Shown here one piece after another: positions 6,026 through 58,752 of a DNA stretch of 64,000 bases (positions are counted from its first letter, which is position 1; every line of letters starts with the position of its first letter). Below the pieces are notes generated by a model, which had not been told where the DNA came from, made no database searches, and saw only the letters and a list, made by a program, of their open reading frames with translations. The DNA lies in the IMG/VR virus record IMGVR_UViG_3300031521_000034, positions 1 through 64,000 of that record; one strand, given 5' to 3'. Position numbers and translations under genes: made by a program. The DNA comes from a virus.

Positions 6026-7447
6026 ATGCAGTACCTGATGGATATTTACCACAACTACGCAGAGTTGATGAAGAACCCGGTATTTGCGGGTATCGCATCG
6101 CTGTGGGGTGTGAGCGTGATTGGTTTTATTTTCAAGAGCGTCCCCAGCAAGATCTGGGGATCGATCATGAGACAGATTACCACTACTGTCTCTATTGACA
6201 ACTCGCGTGGTTGGCCTGCGTGTAACGACCAAGTGTTTCTGGCGTTTGGTAAGTGGGCAAGTAAACAAAAGGGAGTTCGGTTCTCCAGAAGCTTCTTTGT
6301 TTCTGGATCGATGGATGGCTCCAAGCAAACAATGCCGGGTGCTGGTACTCACTACTTCTTTTACAAGAGGCGTCTGTTCTGGTACAGCATGGTGAGACTC
6401 CAGAGTTCTGGTAGCGAGAATGAGAAGAGGGAATTCGTTATTAACCTACTGGGTCGCAAGAAAGATCTGATTGATGAATTGGTGGATGAGTTCTATCCTT
6501 CCATTCCATCTACTGGAATTAAGATCTTTCGGTTTGCCAAGGATGGGTGGGTGCGGTATGCTACGGCGAAGACCAGACCGCTCAATACCGTTATACTCAA
6601 TCAGGAAACCAAGAATGAGATTGTCGGTTCCATCGATGAATTCATGGCAAGCGAGAAGTGGTATAATGACCGCTCCATCGCGTACAAACACTGCCATGTG
6701 CTCTACGGTCCTCCTGGAACTGGTAAGTCTAGCTTGGTTCGTGCTCTGGCAACGGAATACGATCTTCCCATCTTCAACATCATGCTCCAGGATATGTCGG
6801 ATGAACGGTTTGAAGCCGCCATGTTCTCAGTCAATGATGAAGTGGATTCCTATATGAAAAAGCCATGGGGTGGCATCGTTCTCATCGAAGACTTCGATAG
6901 CAGCAAAGCTGTTCAGAGTCGTTACATCCCCAAACACAAAAATAGCGATATACCGGTTGGTACATCTTTCAATGCTGTTGAGATGATAAAGCTTACCAGA
7001 CAAGCTAGTGTTAGGCAGCTTGGCGAGAAGTCCGAAAACCCAGATGCTGATGAACATAAAATCAGCATGGACCTCGAGCGACTGACTTTGTCTGGGATGC
7101 TCAACACTCTGGACGGTGTAGTGGGTCTGGATCGAGTGCTGATCTTCATGACCGCCAATAACCTCGAGAACATCGATGAAGCGCTGCTTCGGAAGGGACG
7201 TGTGGATAAGACGACCTATATTGGTCATCTCACCCATGCCGAAATCTGTGAGTATGGCAAGAAGATGTTCCCGGAATATGCGCTGCCTGATGACAGGGTG
7301 TTTGCACCAATTGCAGGCAGTTCTTTGCAAGACGTTTTTATCAGCAACAAGTATGATCCGGAAGCATTCTATGGTGCTCTGGAGGTGGTGAAGGAAGCCA
7401 CCGATAAGAACGTCAGCGCTTTCCGTGGTTGTGTAGTGCGGCGGTAA
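6026..7447 (+). CDS. Membrane-anchored BCS1-like AAA+ ATPase, 473 aa
   Basis: The AAA+ core has Walker A GPPGTGKSS (228-236), Walker B with GGIVLIEDFD (282-291), a sensor-1-like FMTANN (374-379) and an arginine-finger region LLRKGRVD (387-394). The N terminus has one hydrophobic segment (about 18-37) followed by about 180 residues in the position of a BCS1 N-terminal domain. This layout matches BCS1-type AAA proteins, which are known for moving folded proteins across membranes. A 50-60-residue insertion separates Walker B and sensor 1. It follows thyA by 22 nt with an AAGGA ribosome binding site. The phage substrate is unknown; a membrane chaperone or remodelling role is inferred. Confidence 0.8.
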   Translation: MQYLMDIYHNYAELMKNPVFAGIASLWGVSVIGFIFKSVPSKIWGSIMRQITTTVSIDNSRGWPACNDQVFLAFGKWASKQKGVRFSRSFFVSGSMDGSKQTMPGAGTHYFFYKRRLFWYSMVRLQSSGSENEKREFVINLLGRKKDLIDELVDEFYPSIPSTGIKIFRFAKDGWVRYATAKTRPLNTVILNQETKNEIVGSIDEFMASEKWYNDRSIAYKHCHVLYGPPGTGKSSLVRALATEYDLPIFNIMLQDMSDERFEAAMFSVNDEVDSYMKKPWGGIVLIEDFDSSKAVQSRYIPKHKNSDIPVGTSFNAVEMIKLTRQASVRQLGEKSENPDADEHKISMDLERLTLSGMLNTLDGVVGLDRVLIFMTANNLENIDEALLRKGRVDKTTYIGHLTHAEICEYGKKMFPEYALPDDRVFAPIAGSSLQDVFISNKYDPEAFYGALEVVKEATDKNVSAFRGCVVRR

Positions 7448-8441: not shown

Positions 8442-8481
8442 TGTCGTATTCTTATTTTTCTCCAACACAATGAGACCAAAA

Positions 8482-10416
8482 ATGAACAGCAAAAAACAGC
8501 AACAAGCACACGTCAAAGACATGAACGTTTCGGCCCTCGAACGTCTGGGCTTCAGTAAGAAGCAAGTCGAGCTCTTCGATCTGGCTGGTCATGCTGCCAA
8601 CAAGGGTCAGTTCCTTCAAGCAACGACGACTTACAAGAACCTGTTCATGCAGGTGCAGAAGAGTCTGAAGCTCAAGCGCACTGATATGCCGGAGTACATT
8701 GCATCGATGTATGCTGCCGCAATGGTGCAGGCTCTGATCCGTGAAGACACTTACGATATCAACATCAAGCCCAATTCTTTCAAGCAGAAAGACGCCATCG
8801 AGCGGATCAAGACGATGATTGGCGTTTCCAATACCAGCTTCCAACACCGCCTGCGCAACTTCAACACGATGGGCTTTTTGTACATGTGGGCAGGTGATTA
8901 CTCCGAAGCCACTCAGTACTACAAGCAGGAGCTAGCTACTGCCAAGAGGCTGGAGAACAAGAAGGCTGAAGCCATCGCCATCATGAACATCAGTTATGCC
9001 AGGGGCTGTGGTGAAGACATCATGGCCTACTACGAAGAACGCGGCAAGCTGTTGGGTTATCCGAAGGAGATTATCTACGAGAAGTTTGATGATCCTGCTC
9101 GCCCTCTTCTGGTGCTTCAGGGTGGTGGCAAGCTGGGTGATTCGCTCAACGATCTCGTTTCTCTGCTCAGTCCTTTTGCAGAGAAGTGGAAAACCATCTA
9201 TCTGGATCTGAACAATCCTCCTCTGCAAAAGCTGCTTCTCGAACGCAGCAACTTCGCCGGCATCAATTTCAAGCCGTTCTTCGAAGGAGAGCACGTCGGC
9301 GAAAAATGGCACTATGTCGATCTGAGATCTTTGCCTGCACTGGTGCTTGATGGTAATGATTGGCACTACACCGCCCATGCGGCATGGGATAATGAACAAG
9401 CCAAACTCGATGAGGTGACTGAGCTGCTCAAGGGTGGTCTCTACAAGTGCCACCTGCCCAAGGAAGAGAGGAAGATATTCATCCAGCTCACCGGCGGTGA
9501 TAACAATCCTGCCAATGGTTATCGGGAAGTCGATGAGAGTACGCTGATGAGCGGGAAACTCGTTCCCCATCTTCGTTATCTGAGCGATCACGGCTACTCA
9601 GTCTTCACCACAAGTGAAGTTCTGTACAACCTGATGCAATCGAAGGCTCAGTTGGTGAAGATTGACCCTCTCAGTGAGTATTCGCTCCTCAATCTGGTCG
9701 ATGAAATCGGTTCATGTGAGGCTGTGTTCACGATTGATACCGGAATTGCTCACTTGGCAGGTGTGATGGGCGTTCCTAGTTACGTGATCGTTCCGAAACA
9801 CTATCACTACCCGCTCTACAATCAGAACAAGTATGCAACTTGTAGCACCTATCATGCCGCCGTCTATTTCAACTCACGTGTTCTGCACCAACACAAGGCT
9901 GGTCGAGTTAGCCAGGAATCATTTTGCCGCGCACTTATCAGTCACATGGATTGCCGTGATCCTAAGGAGATAGTCCGCGGTACTACCTCTGTCAGTGAAG
10001 AACTTCTTCAGGACTTCGACGGTGATTCAATAAGTGGACACTATCAATGTCGGCCAATGGATCTCGGTCCGGCAAATTCCAACAGTCCTTCGAAGATGTT
10101 GGCGTTCAGCAATCCTCGCAAGCCGGATCAAATCGATAAGCACTTTGGTGGCCCTGCGGAACACAATGCACTGTGTGGTATGCCGGATTCAAGTGCTCTG
10201 GAGAAACTCAACCTTTTGGCAGAAGGAATGGGGGTGCTTGGTATTCCCTTTCCCATTGAGTTGAATCCGATGCTCGCTGATGTTGGAGGCAGTGTTCTCG
10301 AAGAAGCTATAGCAATCGCCAATGCTACTTCGCCAGCAACATGTTTTGCGATCAATCTCGAGTCACCGTATGAAACTCCATTAACTAACAAGAAGGAGAG
10401 TGATGAGCAAGAATAA
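8482..10416 (+). CDS. TPR protein with GT9-like glycosyltransferase domain, about 644 aa
   Basis: The N-terminal third is helical with TPR-like repeats (around 100-190, with GDYSEATQYYKQEL as one clear unit). The following region has a Rossmann-like layout, including VLQGGGKLGDSLND near residue 210. Around residues 413-431 it has TIDTGIAHLAGVMGVP, the D-T-G-x2-H-L-A-x3-G-x-P signature of family 9 (heptosyltransferase-like) enzymes. TPR-GT9 fusions are known in bacteria. It overlaps the next gene, a GT2 transferase, by 14 nt, so the two probably act in one sugar-transfer pathway on virion protein, DNA or host surface. The ATG at 8482 is preferred weakly; 8470 is possible. Confidence 0.65.
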   Translation: MNSKKQQQAHVKDMNVSALERLGFSKKQVELFDLAGHAANKGQFLQATTTYKNLFMQVQKSLKLKRTDMPEYIASMYAAAMVQALIREDTYDINIKPNSFKQKDAIERIKTMIGVSNTSFQHRLRNFNTMGFLYMWAGDYSEATQYYKQELATAKRLENKKAEAIAIMNISYARGCGEDIMAYYEERGKLLGYPKEIIYEKFDDPARPLLVLQGGGKLGDSLNDLVSLLSPFAEKWKTIYLDLNNPPLQKLLLERSNFAGINFKPFFEGEHVGEKWHYVDLRSLPALVLDGNDWHYTAHAAWDNEQAKLDEVTELLKGGLYKCHLPKEERKIFIQLTGGDNNPANGYREVDESTLMSGKLVPHLRYLSDHGYSVFTTSEVLYNLMQSKAQLVKIDPLSEYSLLNLVDEIGSCEAVFTIDTGIAHLAGVMGVPSYVIVPKHYHYPLYNQNKYATCSTYHAAVYFNSRVLHQHKAGRVSQESFCRALISHMDCRDPKEIVRGTTSVSEELLQDFDGDSISGHYQCRPMDLGPANSNSPSKMLAFSNPRKPDQIDKHFGGPAEHNALCGMPDSSALEKLNLLAEGMGVLGIPFPIELNPMLADVGGSVLEEAIAIANATSPATCFAINLESPYETPLTNKKESDEQE

Positions 10417-11152
10417 GCCTTTGGTGAGTTGCGTCATGGTAAGCCGTGGTGCACTTTTGCCTGCCAGATGGGCTATCGAAGGGTTCCTGAATCAGACGTA
10501 TGAGAATCGGGAACTCATCGTAGTCACGAGCGCAGCAAGAACATCGATGGGTAGTTATCTCGATGGCCTGAAGAATAAACTTCCTCCCAGCGCCAAGATT
10601 GTGTTTCTGAGACTCTTCAATGCAGCGCTGACTGTGGGAGCCATGCGTAATGAGGCCGTAAAGGTCTCTAAGGGTGAGTACATCGCTACCTGGGACGATG
10701 ATGACCTGTACGGTCCTGATCGTCTCAAGCACGCTATGGATGCGCTCAAAGAGACTAAGGCCGATGCGTTCTTTCTTCGGAACATGAAGGTCTGGTCTAT
10801 CCCGGATGAAACCTGCTTCATCACCGGTAATGGCTTTTGGCCTAACACCATGGTGGCGAAGCGCTCTGCGATGACCAAGTATCCAGATGTTCCCAAGGAA
10901 GAAGATCTGGCGCAGCAAGCCAATCTGGTCAGGAATAACAATTCCGTCACTCGTAACTTTGTCGATGATTATCTCTACATCAACAATGGTGCGAACATGA
11001 GTGGCAATGACCATTTCAGGTCATTGCTTCGGAGTGCGGTAAAGATTGAGCATAATACAGGATACGCCATTCACAAAGTTGCTGGAAAGACCACGCATCT
11101 CTACCATCTTTGGGCAAAAAAAGAAATGGCGAGGACAGTTCGCCACCATTGA
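10403..11152 (+). CDS. Family 2 glycosyltransferase, 249 aa
   Basis: The GT-A fold is visible: a strand-rich start, the early motif SRGALLPARWAIEGFLNQTY (14-33), and an acidic DDDD (98-101) in a TWDDDDLYGP context, the DXD site that binds metal and UDP-sugar. RNEAV (82-86) precedes it, as in many GT2 enzymes. AAGGAG lies upstream of the ATG, which overlaps the end of the TPR/GT9 gene by 14 nt. The enzyme probably transfers a sugar from a nucleotide donor together with that neighbour. The acceptor is unknown. Confidence 0.8.
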   Translation: MSKNKPLVSCVMVSRGALLPARWAIEGFLNQTYENRELIVVTSAARTSMGSYLDGLKNKLPPSAKIVFLRLFNAALTVGAMRNEAVKVSKGEYIATWDDDDLYGPDRLKHAMDALKETKADAFFLRNMKVWSIPDETCFITGNGFWPNTMVAKRSAMTKYPDVPKEEDLAQQANLVRNNNSVTRNFVDDYLYINNGANMSGNDHFRSLLRSAVKIEHNTGYAIHKVAGKTTHLYHLWAKKEMARTVRHH

Positions 11153-11198
11153 ATCCGTATTTGACCCACAACTACAATAGCAGAAAAGGAAACTGAAA

Positions 11199-11606
11199 AT
11201 GAAGAAAGTCGAAACTCTCGTCGATACCAAGTACGGCGCCGGCGTCCTGATTGCCGGCCATGATGAATTCAAGGTCACGATGGCCGTCGATTACCACGGC
11301 ATCAGAGTCGCTGATCACGCGGCATACGTTATCGAGCAAAATGGTGTGGAAGAAAAAGTTCTGACTTTCCGCACCGGACTCGTCCTCGGTCTGCACAATG
11401 AGGATCTCATCAAGCTCCTCATCCATCGCATCTCCGGTCAGAATGACATCCTCAGCTGCGATCAGAACGTCGAAGCCATCAAGGCTCTCCAGACTGCTCT
11501 GGCCAAGCTCGAGGAGCGGGCCGAAGTCATGAAAGAACAAGCCGCCGATCTGGAGGCTGCTTCGACTGTAGTTGAAAACATGATCATCGAACACCACCCC
11601 GTATAA
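11199..11606 (+). CDS. Acb2/Tad1-hairpin-domain-like protein, paralog A, 135 aa
   Basis: The second half (about 65-112) reads G-L-x-N-E-D-L...L-I-H-R...C-x-x-N-x-x-A-I-x-x-L-x-x-A-L-x-x-L-x-x-R. It fits the helical hairpin of the phage Acb2/Tad1 superfamily, whose members sequester cyclic nucleotide signals made by CBASS or Thoeris defence. The N-terminal 60 residues are a separate small beta-rich domain, and a coiled-coil end follows (about 100-125). Its codons are strongly G/C-ending, like the capsid gene, which fits a protein made in bulk. A paralog follows directly with a near-copy of the same leader. The sponge role is inferred from family resemblance only. Confidence 0.55.
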   Translation: MKKVETLVDTKYGAGVLIAGHDEFKVTMAVDYHGIRVADHAAYVIEQNGVEEKVLTFRTGLVLGLHNEDLIKLLIHRISGQNDILSCDQNVEAIKALQTALAKLEERAEVMKEQAADLEAASTVVENMIIEHHPV

Positions 11607-11638
11607 CCCACCAACTCACAATAGAAAGAAAACTGAAA

Positions 11639-12031
11639 ATGACTACCGACACTTTTGAATTCGACGACGGCACTGCTGACCTCATCGCGCGTCACCGCGA
11701 TGTTTCCATCGGCCACATCACCAAGTTCCTCAACACCCCGGTCAAGCCCGGTATCGGCTATGTGATCCACGGTGAAGGCGATGAAGTCTCCAAGAAGCTG
11801 ATCTTCTCGACGAGTGACTTCAATGGCGTCGATGAACGCGACCTGATCGCCATCCTCGTGCATCGCAACAAAATCATCACTTCGCGCCCGCAAGATCCTG
11901 AGATCCTGAAGCGTCTGAATGAGATTCAAGATCTGCTCAATGAGCGCGCCGAGCAGATCGAGGCCGACGAAGCAATCCTGAACGGCCAGCACGATGAATG
12001 GACTGCCCTCCCCAACGGAATCATAGTCTAA
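11639..12031 (+). CDS. Acb2/Tad1-hairpin-domain-like protein, paralog B, 130 aa
   Basis: It shares layout with the preceding gene: a beta-rich N-terminal part (about 1-60), then G-V-D-E-R-D-L-I-x-I-L-V-H-R (about 63-77) and a helical stretch with L-N-E-R-A-E. The Cys and Asn of paralog A are not kept, so it may bind a different ligand or have diverged. The leader (ACAATAG...AAAACTGAAA before the ATG) copies that of paralog A, pointing to tandem duplication. Codons are again strongly G/C-ending. An intrinsic terminator follows. The function is inferred and uncertain. Confidence 0.45.
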   Translation: MTTDTFEFDDGTADLIARHRDVSIGHITKFLNTPVKPGIGYVIHGEGDEVSKKLIFSTSDFNGVDERDLIAILVHRNKIITSRPQDPEILKRLNEIQDLLNERAEQIEADEAILNGQHDEWTALPNGIIV

Positions 12032-12052
12032 TCGGTAGAAACCAGTCCCAAG

Positions 12053-12088
12053 CTCCAGACTCTTTGATAGAGGGTCTGGAGTATTTTT
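12053..12088 (+). terminator. Intrinsic terminator with U-tract
   Basis: CTCCAGAC (12053-12060) pairs with 12074-12081 and is followed by TATTTTT. It lies 21 nt after the stop of the paralog pair. It is one of the few hairpins here with a classical T-run, as expected for termination by a bacterial-type polymerase. Confidence 0.75.
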
Positions 12089-12332
12089 ATAGATTCCAGC
12101 TGTAAATAATACGCACCCTGTCGTTTCTATCTCACTCGACAACGTGCAAGACGTAGTACCCTCCAATTCACTCAAGAAACTGAGGTAAGTGAAGCGAGTA
12201 GCCCATGGATGTTGCAGCGACTGCTATTAACGAGATGATCCTTAGGATGGTTTAGTTACAACAACTAAATCTTGATCGTCATTATCGCTGTCTGCTCATC
12301 TGCGAATACGAATAAAGATAGGAGTCCAACCC

Positions 12333-12761
12333 ATGTCATTAATGATGACAGCAGTAATGTGCTTGGCATTGAACGTCTACAGCGAGTCTCGAGGAGAGCC
12401 TGTTGACGGACAAATCGCCGTTGCACAAGTAACAATGAACAGAGCCGATCAGGCTGAAGAAAAAGTTTGTGATGTGGTCTTTCAAAAAGGCCAGTTCTCC
12501 TGGACACGAGATGTCGTCCAGCGTACTAAGTCCGGCGTAGTCCGGCTCAAGAAGCATTCTCCCAAGCTGCACCCACGAGACAAACAGTCCTGGGACATAG
12601 CACTCGCAATTGCCGAGGCTGCTATTGAGGGAGGTGTTCTCAAAGACGTGGTTGGATCAGCCACACACTTTCGCAACATCCATGAAGCCCATCGATGGCA
12701 TAAGGGGTTGCGTTTCGTAAAGCAGGTGGGTCACCATCGCTTCTACGTCCAAAATTCATAG
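12333..12761 (+). CDS. SleB-type cell-wall hydrolase (endolysin), 142 aa
   Basis: The protein matches the hydrolase_2/SleB family across its length: LALNVYSESRGEP with the likely catalytic Glu18, GQIAVAQVTMNRA (26-38), QFSW, ATHFRN and a GLRFVKQVGHHRFY ending. Family members cleave peptidoglycan glycan strands. The first 13 residues are mildly hydrophobic but lack a clear signal peptide, so it may need a holin or host export. AGGAG lies 9 nt before the ATG. The gene is monocistronic: an AT-rich 240-bp gap precedes it and two hairpins follow. Confidence 0.85.
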   Translation: MSLMMTAVMCLALNVYSESRGEPVDGQIAVAQVTMNRADQAEEKVCDVVFQKGQFSWTRDVVQRTKSGVVRLKKHSPKLHPRDKQSWDIALAIAEAAIEGGVLKDVVGSATHFRNIHEAHRWHKGLRFVKQVGHHRFYVQNS

Positions 12762-17108: not shown

Positions 17109-17606
17109 TCAGGGAGCAGTCACGCCGGTCTTGGCGGTGGTGTAGGCGGCAACCAGGTCAACGGTCGGATCACCGATACCGATGTTCGTGCAAGCCTGGA
17201 GCTGCTGGGCGGCGGTCAGGGTCTGATCGGCATCGAAGCGAACGCGGTTCGACAGGGCCGTGGTGATCGCCGAAGTGGCGGTCTGGTCAGCAGCGATGTA
17301 GTCGGCGATCTCTTTCAGCGTGTCCCACGCCGACGGCGCGCCGCCGATGATGTCGTTCTTGACCTGGGCCAGCAGGGCCGTCAGCTTGTCGGACGAGTAG
17401 GTGGTGGTGGTGCCGACCTTCGTGTCGTCGATGATGGTCTTGGCAGCTTGCGTGGCCAGGCCGGCTTGCAGTTCGTTGATCGAAGCGACGAGGTTGGTCT
17501 TGTCGGTGGTGGTCAGGGTCGACAGGACACCTTGGTTCTTGACCAGGGTCCCGATGTCGCCACCGACGGCGGCGGCAAATGCCGCCAGGTTGGCTTGCAG
17601 AGTCAT
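17109..17606 (-). CDS. Tail-fibre-type virion protein, 165 aa
   Basis: It begins with TLQANLAAFAAAVGGDIGTL, matching the adjacent small protein, and continues with Thr/Ala/Asp-rich segments (SAWDTLKEIADYIAADQTAT, TLTAAQQLQACTNIGI) typical of phage fibre or appendage shafts. Codons are strongly G/C-ending, unlike the neighbouring fibre genes and like the capsid gene. This suggests a high-copy virion part or a different origin. GAGGAA lies 10 nt before the ATG. It is the first gene of the minus-strand fibre module. Confidence 0.65.
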   Translation of the reverse strand: MTLQANLAAFAAAVGGDIGTLVKNQGVLSTLTTTDKTNLVASINELQAGLATQAAKTIIDDTKVGTTTTYSSDKLTALLAQVKNDIIGGAPSAWDTLKEIADYIAADQTATSAITTALSNRVRFDADQTLTAAQQLQACTNIGIGDPTVDLVAAYTTAKTGVTAP

Positions 17607-24770: not shown

Positions 24771-26387
24771 ATGAGCCCCGATTTGATAGCATTGATCGAC
24801 AGTGATACTCCGAAAATCAATCCACTGATTGCGGAGGGTGTAGCGTTCCATGAACTCAAGCAAGTGGATAGCTATATCGATCAAATCTTCAAATTGATAA
24901 GTGCGGATTTTCCCGAGAGTCTGTCGTACATAGGCTACCGTAGGTGCACACCTATGGAGGAATACCGCCACAAAACAAAGTCTGGAGTCTACGATTTCGC
25001 CAGAAGCGACGTCTATCTGAACGAGTATCAATTCAGTTACGTGGAAAAGAATGGTGTGGAGCACGAACTCAAAGTTCCGTTGTATCTGCCGTTCTGCGCT
25101 ATTGGTGGTGTGATGCATATCTCAGGATCGCGTCACGTGATATCTCCTGTTCTGACGGACCAGGTGATTTCTCTTGGACTCAATTCCGTATTCGTTGGTG
25201 TGATTCGCGGGAAGGTAACTTTCAAGCGCATCTCCCACACTTTTGTCTGTAACGGCGTCGACGAGCCAGTACAAGTGTGTTGGGCTTCGGCCTACAACAG
25301 ATCGGAAAGACAGAAAAAAGACTCAGCAACTACACGCGCTCTTGCATCACTGGCGCACTACTTGTTCTGCAAGTATGGGTTGTTTGAAGCCTTCGAAAAG
25401 TTTGCCAAAATTACGCCTATTGTCGGTGAACGGGAAATCACTCATGAAGTGTATCCTGAATCCGAATGGGTAATATGCGAATCGCTCAAAAGAGCTCCGA
25501 GTACCTGCTTAGGGCGTTTGTACACACCCACGCTGATCCGGATAGCGATTCGCAAGTCTGACTTTAACGCCATGGCTCGGAACCTGGTCGCGGGTTTCTT
25601 CTATGTCGTAGACCATTTCCCGGACAGAATGCGGGTGGAAGACGTATCGTCACGAGCCAACTGGCTGGTGCTGCTCGGTGAGATCAATGTCACTGGCAAT
25701 CGTCCCACGGGCTATCTGCTCGATGAAATGAAAAAGCACATTGCATCACTGGATGGTTATCTCGACAAACCTATTGAGCTCTCACTTCGCGACATCGGAA
25801 TTCATGTCAAGAACTTTTTTGAGCTGATGGCCGTCATCATCGATCGCTATAATGACTGGATGCTCACTGATCCGGATCGTGCGTACTCGATGTATGACAA
25901 GAGGGTGACGGTTCTTCCGCACCTGATGTTCGATGTGACCAAAGCGATCGTGTACACTCTGTATGACTTGCAGGACCCGCGTAAGAGCGCGACATTTCGT
26001 GATGTCGAGGCTGTCTTCAAGCGGCATCTCAAGCCCGGCAGGATTTACAAGATCACTAAGAACCACAGGGAGCTCTCAGCCCTGTCGTACTCTGGTGACA
26101 ACATGGCCCTCAAATTCACCTCTATCTTGATCCCGCAGGCAAAACTGCAAACTGGCCCCAGTGGCAAGGGACACGCTGGAGGTGGTGAATCACAGAAGCT
26201 GCATGCCTCAGTGGCTGAGGTGGGTGGTTATCTCAATATCCCGAAAGCTGAACCTAGCGGACGGTCGCGTATCAATCCCCTGGTTCGCCTCAACGAGAAA
26301 GGAGTGGTGGTGAGGAATCCGGAATTGGTTGAATTGCTCGACAGTGTGCAGGCTATGATTCGTGTCAATGGAAAGGAAAGTGCTTAA
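24771..26387 (+). CDS. RNA polymerase beta-subunit-like protein (N-terminal part), 538 aa
   Basis: Two segments resemble bacterial RNAP beta. Residues 102-130 (VPLYLPFCAIGGVMHISGSR, then HVISPVLTD) line up with the beta G-x-F-I-I-N-G-x-E-R-V-I-V-S-Q region. Near 493-512, SGRSRINPLVRLNEKGVV sits where beta has H-Y-G-R-I-C-P-I-E-T-P-E-G. PhiKZ-like phages carry split beta chains, one of them encoded shortly after the capsid gene, matching this position. The stop overlaps the next start (TAATG). The match is by eye and remote. Confidence 0.5.
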   Translation: MSPDLIALIDSDTPKINPLIAEGVAFHELKQVDSYIDQIFKLISADFPESLSYIGYRRCTPMEEYRHKTKSGVYDFARSDVYLNEYQFSYVEKNGVEHELKVPLYLPFCAIGGVMHISGSRHVISPVLTDQVISLGLNSVFVGVIRGKVTFKRISHTFVCNGVDEPVQVCWASAYNRSERQKKDSATTRALASLAHYLFCKYGLFEAFEKFAKITPIVGEREITHEVYPESEWVICESLKRAPSTCLGRLYTPTLIRIAIRKSDFNAMARNLVAGFFYVVDHFPDRMRVEDVSSRANWLVLLGEINVTGNRPTGYLLDEMKKHIASLDGYLDKPIELSLRDIGIHVKNFFELMAVIIDRYNDWMLTDPDRAYSMYDKRVTVLPHLMFDVTKAIVYTLYDLQDPRKSATFRDVEAVFKRHLKPGRIYKITKNHRELSALSYSGDNMALKFTSILIPQAKLQTGPSGKGHAGGGESQKLHASVAEVGGYLNIPKAEPSGRSRINPLVRLNEKGVVVRNPELVELLDSVQAMIRVNGKESA

Positions 26388-28243
26388 TGGCAAGAGATCA
26401 GCAACTTATGCAGACCACTTCCGATATCATCGGAGATCTGCTTGATGCCAGTGTGAGAGGGGGAGTATCCGTACCCCGAGAGGAGTTTGCCAGGGAAGCC
26501 TCAGTTAGTGGCTTCCGCAACCAGCTCTTCGACAAGCTGGTTCAGAACTCGGCAGACATCTTCCTGCTGTGCGTTCACACCGGAAAGGTGAGTAACGATG
26601 CTCGTGCTCTTGAACAAGTGTGCAGCAACGTTCTCGAAGCAACCATCGGTGCCTGGGCCAACGAAATGCGCGTTCGGATGAGTCGCGCCGAAGAAGATTC
26701 GTGCTATGAGCTCAAGGAGACCTACGCCGGAATGATGGATGATCTGGCTGAGTGGCGAGCCGGGCGTATTCCTCGCAGTTATGAGGATCGGCGTGGCGGT
26801 TATGGTGGTCGCGATCGTGAACGTGACTATCGGGATGACCGTCGCAGTGGTGAATCGGACCCCTTCTTCAATTCGCGTCGTTCCGGTGGTGGTAGTCGAG
26901 CCGGCAATGGCGGTAGCTCCTTTACCGAAGCGCGTGCCGGTATGCAGCAGTTTGGCTCTGCACCAGTCGCTGAAAAACAAGTAGCTCCAGTCATGCGCCG
27001 CGGCAGCGATATCGGGTTTACTGACCCGGTGTACAGGGACATGACGGTTGTTCCTGGTTCAGCTGCTGAAAGTGTGACATCCGACTGCAACGCTGAATTG
27101 CGCAACCTGCCGGTCTCCGAGGCCATGAAGTACCCGCCCCAAGATCCGGATAATCCCCACCCCACGGCATTCGACCCGTTTGTTGAAACGATTGTGCCGG
27201 TTGTGGTGTTGGGGAACGATAACAAGAAAGTACGTTACTTCAAGTTCGAAAGCATTAAGGAAGGTGACATGGAACAAGCTCGGCATAACCTGGCCGCAAC
27301 CTTCGGCACAGACCATCTCAGTCGCGAATTGCCTGCTGGCAGCATTCAGGCAATCCGCAAGGCAATCAATGACAACCAAGAGCGGATCATCGACGTCGTC
27401 GAAGAATCCAATGGCGGCCGTCCTCGTGAGCCTGAGAAACCTCGTTTCCTCGAGAACTTCAATGAGCCTACCCAGGCTTTGGAGTTTGGTCTGGATTCGG
27501 TCTGGGGTTATCGGCGCGCTGAATATGAACAGAAGCGTCTGCTGGTGCCGACGCTCGACGTTTATGTTCGGTCGAGCCTGCTGCTTGAGCTGGTCAAGTT
27601 CACCAGCATCGATCAGGTCGAGTTGCTCAACGCCATGGCTGAGTCCACCACTCTCGAGCGTCTGGGTTTCTACTACAAGAAGCTCATGAGCAAGGAAGTG
27701 GGACTGCCGATGCTCTCCCGCACCATCATCAACAAGCGCCTCACTGATATCACCAATCTGGCGCTTCGGGTGAACGTGGGCCTGCCCAAGATGCGCATCG
27801 AGTACTTCGAGAGTGATTTCGAAGAGGTCGAAGCACACATCTGCGCGAGCTACGGCCTGTCGATCGGCAATGCCTTCCTCAAGTACTTCAACCGCAAGGT
27901 CGCTCAAGCAGTGACGGTGTTCGGTACGGACAATCGTTCGGTCTTTCTCGATGCACTGGGCTATGAATCGGACAATGTTCCGGAACTCAACGCCCTGTGT
28001 ACTGAAGTCCGCACGGCGGTCATCAGTCTCAACTCCAACGAGCTCGGCTTCGCGTTTCAGGCCGGTACTCCGACTCTGGTCATTCGCGAGAAGACTCCGC
28101 TGTTGTTCAATCTGGCCATCACCATCATGAAGAACTACCGCGAGAACGTGCGGTATGTGCTTGAGACGGCTGACGGCTATCGCTTCGAGCTCTCCAAGAG
28201 CTGGCTCAACCCGCATGAGCAAGTCCTCATCGTCGACATCTGA
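26387..28243 (+). CDS. Unknown protein with Arg/Gly/Asp-rich linker, 618 aa
   Basis: Residues 1-125 are helical. About 125-175 is a disordered linker rich in R, G, D and S (RRGGYGGRDRERDYRDDRR). The remaining 430 residues are globular, with no motif I recognise. RGG-like linkers often contact nucleic acid. Codons lean to G/C endings, suggesting a well-expressed, possibly virion, protein. It is coupled to the RNAP-beta-like gene by a one-base overlap and ends at a 16-bp hairpin. Its size is near that of phage-nucleus shell proteins, but I see no specific support for that. Confidence 0.6.
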   Translation: MARDQQLMQTTSDIIGDLLDASVRGGVSVPREEFAREASVSGFRNQLFDKLVQNSADIFLLCVHTGKVSNDARALEQVCSNVLEATIGAWANEMRVRMSRAEEDSCYELKETYAGMMDDLAEWRAGRIPRSYEDRRGGYGGRDRERDYRDDRRSGESDPFFNSRRSGGGSRAGNGGSSFTEARAGMQQFGSAPVAEKQVAPVMRRGSDIGFTDPVYRDMTVVPGSAAESVTSDCNAELRNLPVSEAMKYPPQDPDNPHPTAFDPFVETIVPVVVLGNDNKKVRYFKFESIKEGDMEQARHNLAATFGTDHLSRELPAGSIQAIRKAINDNQERIIDVVEESNGGRPREPEKPRFLENFNEPTQALEFGLDSVWGYRRAEYEQKRLLVPTLDVYVRSSLLLELVKFTSIDQVELLNAMAESTTLERLGFYYKKLMSKEVGLPMLSRTIINKRLTDITNLALRVNVGLPKMRIEYFESDFEEVEAHICASYGLSIGNAFLKYFNRKVAQAVTVFGTDNRSVFLDALGYESDNVPELNALCTEVRTAVISLNSNELGFAFQAGTPTLVIREKTPLLFNLAITIMKNYRENVRYVLETADGYRFELSKSWLNPHEQVLIVDI

Positions 28244-53611: not shown

Positions 53612-54916
53612 TTAGATCTTCAGCGTGTTGCCAAAGTTGAACTTGGCCAGAGCCAGGTATTGGATCTTGTTGATGTTCATGGCAAGGAACACCATCTTGT
53701 TTCTGACCACCCGCGTGAAGCCAGCCGGAACTTGAGAGACTGCCGTCAGGTCTTCAGCTCTCTGCAAAAGTGTAGCCAGTGCAACAGCCCATTCCTGGGT
53801 GGTGGCACTCATCCGGTTGAAGTCAGTGCTGGATGTCGGCACAGCGATGTAGTCAGGATAGTAATCCGTGACGTAGAACTTGCTGTTGCGGTTATCCGGA
53901 CCACCACAAATCGCCAGGATCAACGACTTGTAGTTATGCGACATCATTTCCAGGTAGGAGGAAATGTGGGTATCGCCATAGTCCGAACACACAGCTTCTA
54001 CAGCACTGAAAACTTTCTTAACTTGCACGACCGGGGAATAGATTCCCGATTGCAGCGTTTTGTCAGGGATGGCCATTGTGTCATAGAACGGGACGATGAC
54101 GAACTCAGTTCTTTTGAAGAGGTCCGGGAGAATCTTGACCCACTCATCCCTTGTATGGCTAGAGTTAGCCAGAATGTAGTCAACGATGGCATCGCGAATC
54201 GAGTCATCATTGTTACCATATGTTCCATAGATCACCACTCCGAATTGCGCGGCTATGTAGTCGCTGGTTTTGTTGGGGTTGTGGTAGTCATAAGACTCCA
54301 CTTGCAGGTAGGTTTCTGGATGACCGTTCTTGACGGACTGCATCTGGTTCACCATCCAGGTCGGTGTCACGGCTTCAAGAGCCGCATCGACCTTGTCACC
54401 GGCCAGGAAGAAATTGTCGACAGGTGTGAATGGAGGCACAACGATGATGCTGTATTCATCGTACTGGGCCTGGAAGCTATCGTCCGAGAACCAGATTTTG
54501 AAGAAATCATCTGAGCCTGCAGGATTCCACGAAACCCACTCGGGAGCCCAGTGCTCGCCTTGTTGCACCATCTCGCCGCAATCTACATTTTCGTAGGAGC
54601 TGCCGACAAGTGCAACAAGTGTATTGAGGAAAAGCGCCCTATCTGATGTATTGGAGAGGTCGTTTATTCCGGTGTATACTGCACCTGCTACAGCAAAGGT
54701 GCTCTTTTGATTGGCATCAGAGACCGGGACCATCGATCCATCCGACAAACTCGAGAAGGTGAGCAGCTGGATGTTCGGGTACGAGGCTGAGATGTATGCG
54801 CCTTGTTCTTTTGTGAAAGTGGCAGAAAAGGTAGACAGCTCTCCGATGGCGGACTTCACGCCTACGGTATTGTCCACCAGACCCGACACCACTATAAACC
54901 CCTTGAGAGAGTACAT
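53612..54916 (-). CDS. Virion structural protein, unknown, 434 aa
   Basis: AGGGA precedes the ATG. The protein is acidic and rich in Tyr, Ser and Asp, with segments such as NFFLAGDKVDAALEAVTPTW and HNYKSLILAICGGPDN. No membrane segment, signal peptide or catalytic motif is seen. It does not show the conserved end of tail sheath proteins. It is transcribed with the coiled-coil protein downstream and diverges from the second spanin-like pair. Structural role inferred. Confidence 0.65.
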   Translation of the reverse strand: MYSLKGFIVVSGLVDNTVGVKSAIGELSTFSATFTKEQGAYISASYPNIQLLTFSSLSDGSMVPVSDANQKSTFAVAGAVYTGINDLSNTSDRALFLNTLVALVGSSYENVDCGEMVQQGEHWAPEWVSWNPAGSDDFFKIWFSDDSFQAQYDEYSIIVVPPFTPVDNFFLAGDKVDAALEAVTPTWMVNQMQSVKNGHPETYLQVESYDYHNPNKTSDYIAAQFGVVIYGTYGNNDDSIRDAIVDYILANSSHTRDEWVKILPDLFKRTEFVIVPFYDTMAIPDKTLQSGIYSPVVQVKKVFSAVEAVCSDYGDTHISSYLEMMSHNYKSLILAICGGPDNRNSKFYVTDYYPDYIAVPTSSTDFNRMSATTQEWAVALATLLQRAEDLTAVSQVPAGFTRVVRNKMVFLAMNINKIQYLALAKFNFGNTLKI

Positions 54917-57882: not shown

Positions 57883-58752
57883 TTACCGGTTGAGGATGTC
57901 AGTCACGCGATCGACTGTCTTATCCAGACAGTTGGTGAACACTTCAAAAGAGAACTGCACCAGCGAGTAGCGCTCGAGGGCTTTGGCCATTACGAAGGTG
58001 TAATGGGTCAGGCCGTTGTAGACTTCAGGACTGATGTTGTCGAGCTTCTTACTCGATTGCTTCTTGAGTAGGATGGTGAGCAGCTTGGAAGCCTCATCAA
58101 GTTTGGCTTTGACCTTGCTGTTTGCCATACCTCTGTAACGAGGAGTGACCTTGTTGAGGCGATCGAAAACACCAGCCCATTCGCTGTTGTTGCTCACCAC
58201 ATCTTTGTATTCGACAGTGGGAGACTTCTGACCAAGATCTTCAACCTGAGCACGAACCTTGGAGATCTCGTCGAGCTGGACCTCAATCATCCGAGGCTTT
58301 TCGGTCACGTATGCACCAGAGGACACGAAGTTCTCATCGGTCACGATCCTGGAGAGCAGCACTGTGTACTCTTGCAGATACTCGAGCAGGTCCTCACAGA
58401 ACTGAGCTTCGTGCAGGAAGACTTCCAGATATGCCAGGTAGTTCGGCTTGACTCCGATCGGCGCATAAACCTTCATGATCTTCAGATCGAGATAGTTATG
58501 CGAGCGAGTCAGAGCCAGGAACTTCTCTTGCTTGCCAGAGAGCTTGACATTGCTGTGACCATCGGTGAAGCTGGCTGAGCCGGAGAAGACCGAGCCGATG
58601 ATGCGTTGTGCTTCAGAAATGAGTTTGGGGAATGTCCGATGAACCAAGTCGGCCATGTTACCGATGGAAAAAGATTCCATGGCGACTAGCTTGTTAACTC
58701 GTTCAAGGGAAGCCGTGGTGGAGGTCGGAGCCTCCAGTTCATCGATAACCAT
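57883..58752 (-). CDS. Unknown helical protein, 289 aa
   Basis: AGAGGA lies 6 nt before the ATG. The sequence is almost wholly helical with regular heptad-like spacing and no membrane segment or catalytic motif. The size and all-alpha nature would fit an inner-head or scaffold-type virion protein, but no family is recognised. It is divergent from the RecA-like ATPase gene across 112 bp. Confidence 0.6.
   Translation of the reverse strand: MVIDELEAPTSTTASLERVNKLVAMESFSIGNMADLVHRTFPKLISEAQRIIGSVFSGSASFTDGHSNVKLSGKQEKFLALTRSHNYLDLKIMKVYAPIGVKPNYLAYLEVFLHEAQFCEDLLEYLQEYTVLLSRIVTDENFVSSGAYVTEKPRMIEVQLDEISKVRAQVEDLGQKSPTVEYKDVVSNNSEWAGVFDRLNKVTPRYRGMANSKVKAKLDEASKLLTILLKKQSSKKLDNISPEVYNGLTHYTFVMAKALERYSLVQFSFEVFTNCLDKTVDRVTDILNR

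Follow-up and report, generated by a model that had tools for sequence, protein, structure and literature searches.

A tandem pair of divergent Tad1-like genes, candidate nucleotide sponges, in a phiKZ-like jumbo phage

Results

Organization of genes A and B

Gene A (11199..11606, 135 amino acid residues) and gene B (11639..12031, 130 amino acid residues) lie head to tail, separated by 32 bases, on the plus strand of the window, that is, the whole 64-kb stretch of DNA analyzed here out of a 93-kb IMG/VR record. A family-2 glycosyltransferase gene (10400-11152) is located upstream of the pair and a cell-wall hydrolase gene (12333-12761) downstream. The preliminary description of this DNA had reported two adjacent paralogs at this site, and both open reading frames are indeed present there; BLASTP aligned their products over nearly the whole length, with 32% identity over residues 13-130 of A (E = 3e-9). 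Pfam and NCBIfam gave no name to A or B, and no close relative of either was found in IMG/VR or INPHARED, collections that may omit near copies of the genome from which the window comes. Two near-identical IMG/VR contigs, L010 and L011, yielded no match to A or B, as L010 stops just short of the pair and L011 is another fragment.

The window also encodes a PHIKZ128 homolog (PDB 9xqs, E = 2.5e-95), a homolog of the PHIKZ123 nvRNAP subunit, and phiKZ-type virion proteins. The source phage belongs to the phiKZ-like jumbo phages; among named phages, Burkholderia phage FLC9 (38-41% identity) and other members of this group are the closest to it.

Leaders, flanking signals, and codon usage

The leader of A (11164..11198, plus strand; ACCCACAACTACAATAG...AAACTGAAA) and that of B (11606..11638, plus strand) are near-identical, as had been noted before. 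They align from ACCCA up to the start codon and have the highest similarity among the 946 upstream pairs compared in the window, a value that none of 5000 shuffles reached; in addition, ACTGAAAATG occurs in the window solely at the starts of A and B. This likeness indicates either that the duplication took about 35 bases of the leader along or that selection on the leader is strong. A weak promoter-like site precedes A (TTGAAT-18-TACAAT, 9/12; 11149..11178, plus strand), with four such sites in the region against 2.6 expected. After B, a 14-pair hairpin (12052-12082; fold z = -3.4) followed by a T-rich tail forms a strongly terminator-like element (12052..12090, plus strand), which would end an A-B unit.

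Third codon positions are richer in C than expected from the amino acid composition in both A (z = 5.1) and B (z = 4.5). The most strongly biased genes of the window include A and B as well as 17109-17606 (tail-fibre-like, z = 6.8), 26387-28243, 57883-58752, and 53612-54916 (head/packaging, z = 3.0). An earlier claim that A and B share G/C-ending codons with the capsid gene holds as far as the C-richness of A and B is concerned; unlike the head/packaging gene and the tail-fibre-like gene, the 702-aa PHIKZ128 homolog has no C-ending codon bias (z = -0.7). The codon bias is compatible with high expression of A and B; a foreign origin of the two genes would give the same bias.

Relationship of A and B to the Tad1 family

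Tad1 (Thoeris anti-defence 1) is a phage protein that soaks up bacterial alarm nucleotides. Three dimers make up this hexameric protein, which binds gcADPR and cyclic di- or trinucleotides and counteracts Thoeris or CBASS. Protein A matched PHROG 2428 with an E-value of 4.4e-10. This family is Tad1, since the annotated Tad1 of phage SBSphiJ7 matches it at 8e-47 and itself matches the solved Tad1 structure 8kbb at 6e-39; PDB 7uav is a further Tad1 structure. When a Tad1 profile built from 62 IMG/VR Tad1 proteins was run over all 702 open reading frames of the window, A ranked first (E = 9.4e-10) and B second with a weak score (E = 0.03). Using hhalign, A alone aligned with the Tad1 profile over residues 19-108, which include both the beta domain and the hairpin (E = 7.7e-10), and B aligned only in its hairpin portion (E = 3.5e-4, probability 37%). 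On these profile comparisons, A is firmly assigned to the Tad1 family; the direct score of B is marginal, and B is a probable member mainly through its relation to A.

The helical-hairpin signature seen in the preliminary description is thus borne out for A by the PHROG 2428 match, and the Acb2/Tad1 assignment offered there was correct and can be narrowed to Tad1, although neither A nor B matched the Pfam model Acb2_Tad1_hairpin (PF24729) at E <= 1. We regard this miss as weak evidence because several true Tad1 proteins also miss the model. Acb2 (anti-CBASS 2) has the helical hairpin in common with A and B, and PF24729 spans both families, but Acb2 lacks the N-terminal beta sheet.

Predicted structure of A

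The N-terminal beta domain of A (11199..11378, plus strand) was delimited from predicted strands at residues 6-10, 13-19, 25-29, 41-45, and 52-56 (low confidence) and from conserved columns. It carries an A-x-H motif (A38 and H40), whose A and H are conserved in 87-88% of 78 Tad1 proteins. The C-terminal helical hairpin (11397..11594, plus strand; helices at residues 67-79 and 88-132), delimited from invariant columns and from a model whose input alignment included Tad1 relatives, bears E68, R77, C87, N90, L104, and R107. The beta domain had previously been considered an extra element; on the contrary, it belongs to the normal architecture of Tad1, in which a four-stranded N-terminal sheet is followed by two C-terminal helices (PMC12043709).

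The model of A guided by Tad1 relatives consists of five strands followed by two helices, with an overall pLDDT of 64 (70-93 in the hairpin and about 50 in the beta domain). A Foldseek search with this model returned CmTad1 as all five of its best PDB matches, with a probability of 1.00 and an E-value of 1.7e-3 at a low TM-score (0.37); the next unrelated fold scored 0.079. When only A and B served as input, the resulting model was of low quality (pLDDT 46), and no structure, Tad1 included, matched it. The guided model is thus supporting rather than independent evidence, because the Tad1 match arises only with Tad1 relatives in the alignment.

Residues retained and lost in A and B

Across 78 aligned Tad1 relatives, hardly any variation is seen in eleven columns. 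Protein A retains eight of these residues (F, G, E, R, C, N, L, and R), and the three that it misses are T and R of RTxxR and G of VEG. Protein B retains five of the eleven, as judged through its alignment with A. The Cys and Asn of the CREN motif are invariant in the 78 relatives and are present in A as C87 and N90, with the C-x-x-N-x-x-A motif in register; in B they are replaced by R83 and D86, in agreement with the loss described earlier. The hairpin region of B (11819..11956, plus strand), defined from the A/B alignment and hhalign, therefore has Arg and Asp in place of Cys and Asn, and its loop is shortened. In A as well, the loop before the first helix is shorter than in Tad1, and F of RLxxFQ is absent. 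The C-terminal RTxxRxxRGVEGT tail is missing from both proteins.

Two Tad1 residues, F82 and N92 of cbTad1, presumably contact gcADPR; by alignment, A retains N92 (as N90) and lacks F82. In Tad1, the gcADPR/dinucleotide pocket is surrounded by conserved loops, the C-terminal tail, and helices that the partner subunit contributes, and trinucleotides are bound at trimer interfaces (PMC12043709). As neither paralog has the tail, we predict that the first of these pockets is altered. A shift of ligand in A and B is plausible on this basis, and the case for it is stronger than in the preliminary description, because the tail is gone from both paralogs and not from B alone. With the fold signature kept and the ligand motif partly lost, A and B may catch other signals or differ in job.

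A phylogenetic tree with 82 rows joined A and B with support of 70/84, which is not significant, and their placement within the Tad1 family is not fixed. Against a family median of 0.42, their terminal branches measure 3.6 for A (8-fold) and 9.0 for B (21-fold).

Tad1-like genes in related phages

A Tad1-like gene was detected at E < 0.003 in seven of the ten phiKZ-like phages searched, namely, FLC9, Noxifer, phiKZ (gp184), PA1C, Eowyn, SNUABM_54, and LucasX. The match in DT01 (0.015) was too weak for this phage to be counted as an eighth carrier. Protein gp184 of phiKZ is a Tad1 that is a virion protein, packaged and injected (PMC10449902; PMC13282480). It belongs to the same phage lineage and shares the same domain with A (E = 2.7e-4), but this 230-aa protein has a long N-terminal extension, an ACEEN motif, and an EGT tail, whereas A and B have neither the extension nor the tail. 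The Tad1-like gene of Klebsiella phage Eowyn (L145:1052-1489) carries the annotation "structural protein" and is located immediately upstream of gp95, the name of an inner-body protein in phiKZ (PMC10449902); the Tad1-like gene of Erwinia phage SNUABM_54 is found in a gene order similar to that of Eowyn.

Two further tandem arrangements were found. In Xanthomonas phage vB_XciM_LucasX, the adjacent and divergent genes LUCX_114 and LUCX_115 (L146:833-1742), both annotated as hypothetical, encode Tad1-like proteins with 28% identity to each other (E = 1.8e-4 in a small set) and degenerate motifs in both copies. This pair resembles A and B in being a degenerate Tad1-like tandem in a phiKZ-like phage, but there is little direct sequence similarity between the two pairs, and different motifs are lost. 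On an IMG/VR contig (L068:1315-2288), a tandem Tad1 pair is present whose second member has neither the CREN motif nor the C-terminal tail. Counting A and B, Tad1 genes in tandem that include a degenerate copy have thus been seen at three sites.

In FLC9, the Tad1-like gene product is gp131 (L003:7173-8189), a 338-aa protein in which a cyclophilin-type prolyl isomerase domain (Pfam, 2.5e-44) is fused to a canonical Tad1 domain (PHROG 2428, 5.9e-29). In a synteny comparison with FLC9, this Tad1 domain itself was the sole match to A.

Discussion

Tad1 is already a known family, and the pair described here is an unusual, divergent variant of it. Like Tad1 (PHROG 2428; PDB 8kbb and 7uav), A and B are proteins of about 130 residues with a predicted N-terminal beta domain followed by a predicted two-helix hairpin, and A carries most of the invariant residues of the family (F, G, E, R, C, N, L, and R). 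They differ from Tad1 in the shortened loop before the first helix, in altered FQ.GP and RLxxFQ motifs, in a longer helix that takes the place of the C-terminal tail, and in being encoded by two genes in tandem.

We consider it fairly probable that A and B are retuned Tad1-type nucleotide sponges that may co-assemble. A Tad1-type sponge gene of a phiKZ-like jumbo phage would have been duplicated in tandem, leader included, giving A and B, which would form a small transcription unit with a terminator at its end. The products may assemble into Tad1-like oligomers, possibly mixed ones, that would trap a nucleotide produced by a host defence (Thoeris, CBASS, or a comparable one) and so keep the defence effector inactive. 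The C-ending codons would fit a stoichiometric binder that needs to be abundant. To judge from the sequences, a sponge function is likely, and a departure from the classic mode of ligand handling is probable: without the tail and the loop residues, the gcADPR/dinucleotide pocket would be changed or absent, and the ligand would then be held at the trimer-interface (cyclic trinucleotide) site or would be a different molecule. B, the more changed partner, might take another ligand or serve as a helper subunit.

A more specific version, in which a neofunctionalised pair forms a mixed A/B assembly that captures a defence nucleotide not bound by classical Tad1, or does not take up decoy nucleotides of the kind used by Panoptes, is possible but doubtful. 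If it were true, the motif-losing Tad1 pairs of LucasX and contig L068 would represent the same escape route.

The main rival to a sponge pair is a role linked to the virion, because phiKZ gp184 is packaged and injected and the Eowyn copy lies directly upstream of gp95. A and B would then be virion or inner-body proteins using the Tad1 fold for assembly or for co-injection with DNA, with sponge activity lost or secondary. The structural annotation in Eowyn, the similar gene order in SNUABM_54, and the resemblance of the codon bias of A and B to that of some virion genes of the window agree with this role. Nevertheless, we regard it as unlikely, as A and B are without the long N-terminal extension of gp184 and their neighbors are a glycosyltransferase gene and a cell-wall hydrolase gene, with no recognised inner-body or head genes adjoining. 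It is rather unlikely that only A functions as a sponge and that B is a duplicate in decay, without a ligand. B has indeed lost more of the invariant residues (5 of 11 kept, against 8 in A), and the second copies in LucasX and on L068 are degenerate as well, but its intact open reading frame, its own conserved leader, and its biased codons (z = 4.5) argue for maintained expression. Finally, a chance or coiled-coil resemblance to Tad1 is very improbable and largely refuted for A: although generic coiled-coil families match A weakly (DivIC, E = 0.03) and strong alignment of B is limited to the hairpin, A gave E-values near 1e-9 in three profile comparisons, was the best of the 702 open reading frames, and has C-x-x-N-x-x-A in register, and Tad1-like genes are present in most of the relatives searched.

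A 2026 review names Tad1 as the sole anti-defence protein described in jumbo phages (PMC13282480). In the present survey, most of the phiKZ-like phages examined carry Tad1-like genes, and there are diverging tandem copies from which the known ligand motif is being lost. Should A and B, as retuned sponges, still bind nucleotides, they would indicate new signals or new modes of binding; if they bind none, they would be an example of reuse of the sponge fold.

Two genes further upstream in the window were also annotated. The 648-aa protein encoded at 8470-10416, adjoining the family-2 glycosyltransferase gene, shows weak TPR and weak heptosyltransferase (GT9) signals, and as a synteny probe it found no relative in IMG/VR (six patterns). 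The gene at 6026-7447 encodes a BCS1-like AAA ATPase (PHROG 7485, E = 3e-116) that is present in 149 phage records, and most of those listed are large phages.
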